Shown here: in pieces, positions 54,150 through 60,024 of the stretch
Layout: the number at the start of each line of letters is the position of its first letter
Numbering within the stretch: the stretch's first letter is position 1
From: Natronococcus sp. A-GB1
GTDB taxonomy: Archaea; Halobacteriota; Halobacteria; Halobacteriales; Natrialbaceae
Direction of reading: 5' to 3'
Assembly (NCBI RefSeq): GCF_029688845.1
Contig: NZ_JARUKW010000002.1
Location: 124,001-188,000 of the forward strand
Length of the DNA: 64,000 bases
Position numbers and translations under genes: made by a program
Notes under the pieces: model-generated
Database searches by the model: none
Seen by the model: only the letters and a program-made list of their open reading frames with translations
Told to the model about the DNA's origin: nothing

Positions 54150-55496
54150 CTACAGCGCCTCCTTGTACGCCTCGAGGGTCTCCTCGACGTCCTCCTCGGT
54201 GTGGCCGTAGCTGACGAACTGGCACTCGAACTGGTTCTGCGAGAGGAACACGCCCCGCTCTTTCATCTGGCCCCAGAAGATCCGCCGCCAGCGGTCGGTC
54301 TCGGCGTTTTTGACGTCGGCCGCGTTCTTCGGACAGCTGTCGTAGCGCGGGCAGGTCGGCCGCTGTCGGCAGCCGTTCGAGCACTGCTCCTCGAGGGAGT
54401 TCGCGCCCGGTCCGTCGCGGGTGAAGATCACCTTGAACATACTGTCGGTGCCGGTGACGGTGTAGCTCGGCGCCTGCTCGGCGAGGATCTCCGTCAGCCC
54501 GCTCCGCAACTGCTCGCCGAGCCCGTTGACATGGTCGTAGACGTCGTTCTCGGCGGCGAACTGCAGGGTTTCGAGACCCGCGGCCATCGTGACGGGGTGG
54601 CCCGAGAACGTGCCGGCCTGGAACACCGGGCCCGAGGGTGCCAGCTGTTCGATGATCTCGGCGCGACCGCCGAGCGCGCCGACGGGGAAGCCGCCGCCGA
54701 CGATCTTGCCGAACGTCGTCAGGTCGGGGGTGACGCCGAACTCGCTCTGGGCACAGCCCAGTCCGCCGACCCGAAAGCCCGTGATCACCTCGTCGAAGAT
54801 CAGCAGCGAGCCGTGCTCGTCGGTGATCTCGCGGAGGAACTCGTGGTAGCCGTCCTCGGGGTAGACAACCCCGTGGTTCGCCAGGATGGGTTCGGTCATC
54901 ACTGCGGCAATGTCGTCGCCGTGTTCTTCGAAGACCTTCCGAATCGCGTCCTCGTCGTTGAACGGTACCGGGAGGGTGTGTTCGGCGAAAGACTGCGGAA
55001 CGCCCGCGGAGGAGGGGGCCGGGTTCTCGGCGTCGCCCTCGACCAGCGTCGACTCCTGGGCGCCGTGGTAGCCGCCCTGCATGACGACGATCTTGTTTCG
55101 CCCCGTGTACCCCCGGGCGAGTCGCACCGCGGAGGTGGTCGCTTCGGTGCCGGAGTTGACGAACCGGATCTTCTCGACGCTGGGTACGTGGCGAACGACG
55201 AACTCCGCAAGGTCAACCTCGATCTCGGTCGGGGTGCCGTAGATCGGCCCCTCGCTGGCGTTTCGCTGGATGCCCGCGCGAACGGGCTCGGGCAGGTCGT
55301 GGCCCAGCAGCAGCGGACCCAGCCCCATCACCCAGTCGATGTAGCGGTTGCCGTCCGCGTCGATGACGTGGCCGCCGTCGCCCTTCTGGACGAAGAATGG
55401 GTAGGGTTCGATCGCCGCCCGAACCGCCGAGTTGACGCCGCCGGGCATCACCGACAGCGCCCGGTCGTACAGCTCGCGAGAGTGATCGTCGGTCAT
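54150..55496 (-). CDS. hemL: Glutamate-1-semialdehyde 2,1-aminomutase
   Basis: 448 residues. Makes 5-aminolevulinate from glutamate-1-semialdehyde (C5 pathway) with PLP. Landmarks: [11 protein letters not shown] at residues 17-27, [48 protein letters not shown], and the PLP Lys in [19 protein letters not shown] Cys-rich insert near residue 365-385 ([18 protein letters not shown]) is absent from bacterial enzymes but, as I recall, seen in haloarchaeal ones. It might bind a metal. Confidence 0.95.
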
Positions 55497-55592
55497 GGGC
55501 GAGCCTTACGAGCGGGACGGCAAAGTAGTACCGAGGTTCGCTCGTCGGTCCGCGCTCGAGCGGGCGACGCGCTCGCGACCTCGAGCCGACCG

Positions 55593-55605
55593 AAAAAAGC
55601 CGCGG
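55593..55605 (-). terminator. T-rich terminator-like site after the Amt-PII gene
   Basis: On the minus strand a GC-rich run (CCGCGGC) is followed by six T, about 25 bases after the amt stop. Runs of T are the usual archaeal termination signal. Confidence 0.4.
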
Positions 55606-55622
55606 TACCCGTTTCGATCCGA

Positions 55623-57374
55623 TCAGACCGCGTCGGTGCCGGTCTTTCCGGTTCGAATCTGGACGGCGCGCTCGACGGGGGTGACGAAGACCTTCCCGTC
55701 GCCGGACTCGCCGGTGTTCGCGCCCTCGCAGATCGCGTCGACGACCGTTTCGGCCGGGATGTCGGCGACGACGCACTCGATCTTGACCTTCTGGTGGAGG
55801 TCGACCGTGTACTCCTCGCCGCGCCACTGGCCCTTCTTGGCGGGCTGTGAACCACGACCCGAGACGTTCGTCACCGTCAGCGAGGGTGCGCCGGCCTCGG
55901 CGAGCGACTGCTTGACCGCGCCGAGGCGGTCGGGACGGACGATCGCGGTGACCATCTTGATCTCACCGCCGTTCGGGCTTCCCCCATCGGTTCGAATGCG
56001 CTTGTTGTCGACGCTTCCGCCGTCCGTCGCGACGTCTGGACCGCCGAACTCGGGGTAGGTGTCGACGCCGTGTTCAGTGACGTCGAGCCCGTCGCGCTCG
56101 TGTTCGGGGGTCACGCGGGCCTGTCCGATCGCTTTGAATGCGCCCCAGACGGCGGCGGTCGCGGCCACCGTCCAGACCGTGATCACGGCGACGCCGACGA
56201 GCTGTGGGACGAACGCGCTTGCCTCGATCGAGAGGATCCCGCCGGCGACGACGCCGCCGCCGATCGCGGTTCCCTCGATCGACCACAGCGGGTAGATCAC
56301 CAGTCCGAGCATTCCTGCGGTCCCGTGAACCGGGAACACCGCACAGACGTCGTCGATGTTGAGCCGCTCGTCGACGAACTTGAACACGATCGGGAGCTGG
56401 GCGCCGGCGAGGAAACCGATCGCGATCGCGCCCATCGGCGTGATGAGATTGGTCGGCCCCGTGACGCCGACGAGCCCGGCGAGCATCCCGTTGGCGACGT
56501 ACAGCGTGTCGACCTTGCCGTTTATCGCCAGCGAGACGCTCGAGGCACCGATCGCGCCCAGCCCCATCCCGAGGGCGGTGACCATCGCGACGCTACCGAC
56601 GTACTCGAAGTCGGCCAGCCCGACGACCTCGCCGGCCGCCGCGCCGGCGTCGACGTCGACGACCGTCGCGGCCGTCCCGACGTTGAAGCCGAACCAGCCG
56701 AAACAGAGGATCAGCGTCCCCAGGACGGCGAACGTCATCGAGTGGCCGGGAATGATGTTGACGCTGCCGTCGTCGTTGTACTTGTCCATCCGAGCGCCGA
56801 GCATCCAGGCGGCGGTGAGCCCGGCGACCCCGCCGACGCCGTGGACGACCATTCCGCCCGCGAAGTCCGAGAAGCCGAGACTCGCCAGGACCGGCTCCCC
56901 ACCGGGGGCGTACCAGACCATCGCGGCGACGACCGGGTAGATGACTGCCGCGAGCAGGAACGTGTAGGTGACGTACGCCCGGAGCCTCGCACGGCCGGCG
57001 ACGGCACCCGAGACGATCGTGGCGGCCGTCATTGCGAACACCGCGCTGAACAGCCACATCGCCCAGTCGAACGAGCCCTCGCCGAACATCGTCAGCGGGC
57101 CGGCGTCGCCGCCGCCCAGTGCCGCACCAACGTTGTTCGAGAGCCCCATCCCGATCACGAAGAAGACGAAGATGCCGACCGCCCAGGTCAGCATGTTCTT
57201 CGTCAGCTGGTTCGCGACGTTCTTCGAGCGGACCTGGCCCGCCTCGAGCATCGCGAAGCCGGCGTGCATGAAGAAGATCAGGAACGTCACGGTGAGTGCC
57301 CACATCAGGTTCATTCCCGTCGCGAGCTGCTCAATATCGGCCGTCGAGACCTCGAGGGCGATCGGCTCGATCAC
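55623..57374 (-). CDS. Ammonium transporter fused to a PII signalling domain (Amt-GlnK)
   Basis: 583 residues from a GTG start. Residues about 15-430 form an Amt channel with 11 helices. Landmarks are [13 protein letters not shown] at TM1 and the twin pore histidines in [11 protein letters not shown] and [13 protein letters not shown] linker of about 40 disordered residues joins it to a complete PII domain (about 472-583). Its elements are [19 protein letters not shown], a T-loop with the conserved Tyr ([10 protein letters not shown]), KVKIECVV, and the nucleotide-binding [22 protein letters not shown] normally is a separate GlnK trimer that plugs Amt; here it is tethered. No stop or frameshift separates the parts. 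Confidence 0.93.
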
Positions 57375-57848
57375 GAGCTACCCACCTCGGTCGTAGTCTT
57401 TCCGTCCGAATTTGGCAAACGACTGTCCACACCGAGTCCACTATCTTTTGCGTATGTGTTCGGATTCACGGGTATGGTTGATGGAAGTGAATGGTATAAG
57501 GATTAGTGTTGGTGAATGTGCACATATTGTTGGCTACCTGTGACAGACGTAGATATTTATAAGCGATATATTCTGTATAAGGCCATCCGAGAGCGGCTGC
57601 GATCGCGGTTCCGACCGCTGACGTACCGGTTGCGAACGACGTTCACGTGAGATCATCGACGCTCGAGGTAAATTTCTCTCTCGTCGGTGTCGATCCGAGC
57701 TCGCGCGGAAAATGTTGCCCCATCTACGTTCCGATCGACCTGCAGATGGACGTTCGTCAGAAACCGCCGACGCTGCGCTCGTACGGCACTCGACGAGCGA
57801 TCGGGTGTTCGTTCCCCGAACGGCCACTCGGTGACGGCGCGACTGCGA
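57375..57848. other. AT-rich spacer between amt-PII and hemB, with promoter-like elements
   Basis: 474 bases without a convincing gene. The left part (57440-57590) is much more AT-rich than the surroundings, with TTATA-type elements on the minus strand at about 57495-57503 and 57550-57560. These are candidate amt promoters that would give a leader of over 100 bases. An 11-base palindrome GAACG-A-CGTTC lies at 57634-57644. Open frames in the right part lack family sequence. Confidence 0.5.
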
Positions 57849-58877
<1,029 letters not shown>

Positions 58878-58926
58878 ACCTGCCCTATCGAGGGCACGTC
58901 CAAAAGCGGTGCGCTCGAGGACGGGG

Positions 58927-60024
58927 TCAGGACATCGTCTCGTCACCGACCTCGGGGTTCTCGCGGACAAACTCGACTAGGGCGTCGACGTAGGACTCGA
59001 ACGGTGGACACTCGATCCCGGTTCCGGCGAGCGCGCGCCGGGTGTTCGGACAGGCGTACCGCGTCGGATGGTCCAGATAGTCGAGCGTCGCGGGCTCGGC
59101 GGGCACTCCTCGCGCCGCGGCGGCGTCCAGCAGGCGCCTCGTGACCGATTTCGAGCCGGGCACCGAGAGGACGCGGTGTCCGATCGCGTCGGCGACGGCG
59201 TCGACGAACGCAGGCACAGACAGCGGCGCCGGATCACACAGCTGGTACACCTCGCCAGTGGTGTCTTCGCGGGCGCTCAGGTGATCGATCGCGTCGATGA
59301 CGAAATCCCGTGGAACGACGTTGAGCTCGCTCCCGGCCGCACCGGGGAGGCTGGTCGTCACCGACAACCACGACGGCTGAGAACGGAGCATCCGGAGCAG
59401 GTAGTACGGTCCATCGTACTTCTCGGTTTCGCCCGTTTCGCTGTCGCCGACGGTGATCGCCGGCCGGTAGATCGTCGCCGGGAGCCCGTCGGCCAGTCGC
59501 TTCTGGACGGCGACTTCGGCCTCGTACTTCGTCCGTTCGTAGTGGTTGTTGAACGTCTGGCCCTCACGCAGGTGGGCCTCAGTGAAGACCCCGTCGTACC
59601 GACCGCTGACGTAACACGTGCTGACGTACTGGAACCGGTCGACATCGAGCTCCTCGGCGACGTCGAGGACGCGTTCGGTTCCCCGGACGTTGACCGCCTC
59701 GGCTGGTTCGGGATCGACGGCCAGGTCGTAGATCGCCGCGAGGTGGTACAGCTCCTCGACGGGCTCGAGTTCGGCCAGCGAGTTCTCGAGTCCGAGCCCG
59801 GGCTCGGTGATATCGCCCTCGTAGAGTCGGATCCGGTCGTCGTCGGGGCCGGCGAGTTCGGCCGCGCGGCGCTCGGCGAGTGCGCGGTACGTCGGCTGGA
59901 CCAGACAGGCGATCGGCCCGTCGCCGCGCTCGAGCAGTCGATCGACCAGCGCCGAGCCCAGAAAACCGGGGAAGCCGGTGAGGAGGACGGTCGGTGGCTC
60001 CCCGTCGCCGTCGTCGCCGCTCAT
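58927..60024 (-). CDS. Extended SDR-family reductase (thioester/fatty-acyl reductase-like)
   Basis: 365 residues. N-terminal NAD(P) motif [17 protein letters not shown] (TGxxGxxG), the [14 protein letters not shown] strand, and the catalytic Tyr-x3-Lys in YERTKYEAE. The pattern with [10 protein letters not shown] and DITEPGLGL is closest to the acyl-reductase-like SDRs. ATG 60024 overlaps the stop of the aldehyde dehydrogenase gene by four bases (ATGA), so both enzymes are probably made together and may act on the same aldehyde/acid chain. Substrate unknown. Confidence 0.85.

Follow-up and report, generated by a model that had tools for sequence, protein, structure and literature searches.

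A one-gene fusion of an ammonium transporter and PII in Natronococcus sp. A-GB1 and its distribution among haloarchaea

In the haloarchaeon Natronococcus sp. A-GB1, an ammonium transporter (Amt) and a PII protein are encoded by a real and functional-looking fusion gene, a tethered variant of the known AmtB-GlnK pair. The gene occupies positions 55623-57374 on the minus strand of the window (the whole 64,000-nucleotide stretch of DNA analyzed), where the list of open reading frames and the translation give one uninterrupted frame of 583 codons and a protein of 583 aa. With a probability of about three in four, it makes a tethered channel/plug pair of the AmtB-GlnK type that gates in cis, the cell's sole PII being a dedicated gate. 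A wider proposal, made with somewhat less assurance although favored on balance, is that most haloarchaeal species have a single PII permanently attached to their single ammonium channel, acting as a cis gate and not as a diffusible hub, and that this state and the two-gene state interconvert.

Architecture and conserved residues of the fused gene

The coding sequence starts with a GTG at 57374 and its stop codon ends at 55623; direct reading of the sequence places a Shine-Dalgarno-like GAGGTG 8 nt 5' of the start (57383-57388; this and all features below are on the minus strand unless stated otherwise). The ammonium transporter domain spans residues 25-440 (56055-57302), matches Pfam Ammonium_transp (PF00909) over model positions 2-399 of 399 (2e-93; 313.6 bits against a cut-off of 23.2), and forms long membrane helices in an AlphaFold model. 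Alignment to E. coli AmtB equates the pore pair H168 and H318 with H178 (codon 56841-56843) and H350 (codon 56325-56327), and likewise D160 with D170, W148 with W154, F107 with F113, and F215 with F230; none of these six residues of the window protein varies across 140 fused Amts. The canonical Amt C-terminal region (residues 420-443; 56046-56117), which in the regulated AmtB-GlnK pair contacts GlnK, is equally well kept, its R, V, E, G, L, D, H, G, Y, P, E, and F being invariant among the 140 fused sequences. Because the score falls below the cut-off of the NCBIfam "amt" subfamily TIGR00836 (320.6 versus 343.3 bits), which is narrower than PF00909, the protein is best regarded, from these profile scores, as a somewhat divergent Amt belonging to a divergent haloarchaeal subfamily.

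A DGG-rich linker of the form ATDGG...RTDGG (residues 444-471; 55962-56045) resembles the tails of Amts from two-gene pairs and leads into a complete GlnK-type PII domain (residues 472-583; 55626-55961). The latter matches Pfam P-II (PF00543) at residues 473-577 over model positions 2-102 of 102 (5e-27; 94.7 bits against a cut-off of 25), and its nearest solved relative is 4ozj, a 143-aa P-II protein (E = 1.4e-57). The T-loop (residues 507-525; 55800-55856) contains the RGEEY stretch with R518 (equivalent to R47) and Y522 (equivalent to Y51); among 139 fused sequences, R518 is present in 100% and Y522 in 94%, with F in another 5%. Together with G519, E521, K529, T554-K561, and R574-T575, these residues make up a T-loop and nucleotide site that are conserved whether PII is fused or free. 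The AlphaFold model of a single chain contains both expected folds (mean pLDDT 76, pTM 0.69) with a relative domain placement that is undefined, a disordered T-loop, and a disordered linker (pLDDT < 50 at 430-470). The (A/R)TDGG repeats of the Amt tail are retained in fused and two-gene forms alike despite this disorder and a variable length.

The preliminary description of this DNA had read the frame as a full Amt, with both pore histidines, running without a stop into a complete PII domain that keeps the T-loop Tyr and the nucleotide-binding motif. Each of these points was borne out, by two full-length Pfam domains in the same protein within one open frame, by H178 and H350, and by Y522 along with TGESGDGK and R574-T575.

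Distribution and switching between one-gene and two-gene forms

In the whole genome (4.5 Mb, 99.96% complete), PF00543 and PF00909 each match once, in the window fusion gene; a genome-wide search with the two profiles found neither a second PII nor a second Amt elsewhere. The earlier remark that no free glnK is near can hence be extended to the entire genome: the only PF00543 match is the fused domain, and the separate diffusible GlnK of the AmtB-GlnK pair is absent. The fusion is widespread and not an oddity of this strain. In a search of 391 Halobacteria genomes for PII, with fusion scored by open-frame length, 216 genomes carried the fusion with no other PII, 28 had both fused and free forms, 129 had free PII only, and 18 were without PII. 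The fusion is therefore present in 244 of 391 genomes, which is the outcome of the previously suggested search for single haloarchaeal proteins containing both domains, and in 89 of the 101 genomes of the window's family. As a check on the length proxy, 80 fused-only genomes chosen across families were searched for Amt, and all 80 have exactly one, in an open frame of the same length as that of the PII; Amt is found in none of the 18 PII-less haloarchaeal genomes. A 543-aa frame of Natronococcus sp. A-GB7 that had been counted by length proved to be a copy of PII preceded by an unrelated reading frame and was rejected as a fusion, although this organism has a true fusion besides.

Outside Halobacteria, a phylum sample (n = 393) presents a different picture. 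Among the non-haloarchaeal matches listed, spans covering Amt and PII hold one or two stop codons between the domains, and these matches are therefore two-gene pairs, although rare fusions may exist there; long Amt open frames in four methanogens (G671, G454, G519, and G500) were also rejected as fusions. The generalization that Amt and GlnK are separate in nearly all archaea thus holds outside Halobacteria but fails within them, where fusion is the majority state. No description of an Amt-PII fusion was found in the open-access literature, although an earlier mention may exist elsewhere; PMC5764959 refers to Tremblay and Hallenbeck 2009 on Amt proteins that carry other fused domains.

The history of the fusion was reconstructed from Amt instead of PII, whose tree (119 aa) is too short for this purpose and gives 30 changes. 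In an Amt tree of 186 rows, at least 19 changes of fused or two-gene state are required, 11 of them forced by starred branches, compared with about 60 when labels are shuffled; a more careful tree of 66 rows requires 16 changes, 9 of them forced, these counts being silent on gain versus loss. No bootstrap tree of the latter has a single change, and a single clade of all fused haloarchaeal Amts was rejected (AU p = 2e-7, with the fused rows of the 66-row tree held together). On the evidence of these trees, fused and two-gene states interconvert repeatedly, and part of the interleaved pattern may reflect horizontal transfer between families. Four fused proteins lie within an otherwise two-gene Amt subgroup and represent further fusions. 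In the two-gene haloarchaeal pairs, Amt has a C-terminal tail of the same type, ...YPEFG...DGG...RTDGG, and in most cases the PII fold starts within about 0-30 nt of the amt stop. Switching should be easy because two-gene Amts already possess this tail with glnK only a few bases away: where amt and glnK overlap or adjoin, a minor alteration of the amt stop would be sufficient for a fusion to arise or be lost.

Fused and two-gene forms also share a chromosomal setting. The neighboring frames at 54150-55496 and 57849-58970, which we take from their translations to be hemL and hemB, respectively, recur on both sides at 49 of 80 related loci, with at least one of them at 70 of 80, and both gene forms sit between them. 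Across many haloarchaea, the amt-glnK locus, whether fused or split, is accordingly flanked by these putative genes of tetrapyrrole synthesis (window 54150-58970; loci L033-L112). An extra PII copy is found beside the fusion in several genomes (L034:1888-3516, with PII at its end, L152, L151, L166, and L167), with up to 98% identity to the fused domain. The copy at L034 has no clear start site. In Natronococcus sp. A-GB7, the copy adjoining the fusion is 98% identical over the domain. These sequences look as if free PII were sometimes regenerated by local duplication. At two other loci (L102:3803-4399 and L168:2049-2645), a 199-aa PII frame with a hydrophobic N-terminal segment and a DGG linker stands beside an Amt-PII fusion, possibly encoding a membrane-anchored PII. 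In one genome (L179), two Amt-PII fusions lie side by side and belong to different haloarchaeal Amt subgroups.

Alternative readings of the gene

That an assembly or sequencing error has joined two genes is so improbable as to be negligible. Relatives often have the two-gene form, which departs from the fused one by just a few bases at the junction, but the same unbroken gene is present in Natronococcus amylolyticus (98%) and Natronococcus sp. A-GB7 (97%) among 80 related loci of the genome collection, and because these close relatives are fused too, the join is not a read error. Moreover, 157 open frames, drawn from many assemblies of which several are complete chromosomes (some loci being the same genome taken twice), contain both domains joined by a related linker, which rules out the frameshift that the preliminary description had named as its possible undoing. 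A more serious, though still unlikely, reading is that the gene has two products, with an ordinary cytosolic PII also released by an internal start at M474 (55953-55955), the sole ATG at the junction, or by cleavage of the linker. Of 157 fused genes, 122 have an ATG at the junction, and at least one relative, Natronococcus sp. A-GB7, has the extra PII next to its fusion, as though a free copy were of some use. Against an internal start, 35 of 157 junctions have L in place of M, and initiation at M474 would cut the first two residues off the PII fold. A Shine-Dalgarno match at 5-6 of 6 positions precedes 28 of 32 free glnK starts, compared with 14 of 122 fused junction ATGs (none at 6), the latter rate being close to that of control internal ATGs of the same genes (171 of 1875 at 5-6 of 6); this comparison bears on Shine-Dalgarno-led starts, and leaderless initiation or cleavage may still occur. 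The strong Shine-Dalgarno that precedes free glnK is missing from the fused genes, which argues against a separately translated PII. As for cleavage, AmtB1-Flag of Hfx. mediterranei appeared in blots mostly as a C-terminal fragment, perhaps a preparation artefact (PMC3831643); proteolysis could free the PII domain, which is a point against permanent tethering.

Somewhat less probable again is a role as a transceptor, in which Amt would mainly sense ammonium and PII would relay the signal to membrane-recruited partners such as glutamine synthetase, with transport being secondary, as in Ks-Amt5. The closest solved Amt structures are 6eu6 and 8qj3, the latter a 644-residue Amt with an extra C-terminal part, and the only PII of a cell might be expected to reach other targets. 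Ks-Amt5 has an intramembrane NH4+ pocket formed by Q24, E31, N47, D50, T51, T109, and T112 (PMC5764959). The first five of these seven positions were compared and correspond to H37, E44, N60, T63, and W64 of the window protein, so that a pocket of this type is not conserved there; among the residues that block the pore in Ks-Amt5, F27 is retained and Y30 and F34 are lost. In addition, PII is never kept without Amt among the genomes tested.

Proposed mechanism and relation to known systems

In the AmtB-GlnK system under plentiful nitrogen, the Amt trimer is capped by a GlnK trimer whose T-loops shut the pores. The mechanism proposed here for a tethered counterpart builds on the architecture, the conserved residues, the genome-wide uniqueness of the gene, its distribution, the repeated switching, and the lack of a glnK ribosome-binding site described above; for trimer docking, gating in cis, and ligand logic, we infer the following course. 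Three chains would make up an Amt trimer, and the PII domains at their C termini would come together as a single PII trimer, kept immediately below the membrane by the linker, which is flexible and acidic. At high internal nitrogen (low 2-oxoglutarate, ADP-bound PII), this PII trimer would dock, its T-loops entering and closing the three pores; as ATP and 2-oxoglutarate rise, it would undock while remaining attached. Because it is the cell's only PII on the only Amt, the domain would act in cis as a dedicated channel gate, carrying no signal through the cytosol as free GlnK does. Such intramolecular gating is plausible in view of the residues retained. The 1:1 stoichiometry is nothing new, since E. 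coli AmtB and GlnK also bind as one trimer to another; the consequence of tethering is instead the absence of any PII free in the cytosol.

This absence is what gives the fusion its wider interest. PII in bacteria is described as a freely moving nitrogen integrator that visits many targets, whereas in the many haloarchaea that have the fusion alone the sole PII seems tied to the channel, and close relatives have a free PII, often encoded at the same chromosomal site. If the wider proposal is true, the interconverting one-gene and two-gene states amount to a natural experiment on the purpose of a free PII pool, and fused and free relatives would allow a direct test of which PII functions need the free protein. 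The fusion also offers a ready-made 1:1 construct for structural work on a transient complex.

The closest known system is the AmtB-GlnK pair (E. coli 2nuu/2ns1; Hfx. mediterranei AmtB1/GlnK, PMC3831643), which comprises the same two families with a conserved pore, C-terminal region, and T-loop, and whose genes are adjacent in two-gene relatives. Free GlnK of Haloferax mediterranei joins AmtB1 in the membranes following an ammonium shock (PMC3831643). The window gene differs from this pair in specifying one polypeptide, in a genome with no free PII, and in having no glnK ribosome-binding site. Ks-Amt5, an ammonium sensor histidine kinase (PMC5764959), likewise combines an Amt and a C-terminal soluble signaling domain in one chain, but its fused domain is a histidine kinase, and the window protein does not preserve its ammonium pocket. 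Single Amt-PII genes also occur on plasmids in Bacillota, in Enterococcus raffinosus (WP_222227351.1) and Ruminococcus albus (WP_013483901.1), where they are annotated "ammonium transporter." As in the window, Amt is followed by PII in one CDS with both Pfam domains above cut-off; identity to the window protein is about 31-32%, the T-loop is different, and because the linkers are unrelated, the Bacillota fusions probably arose independently.
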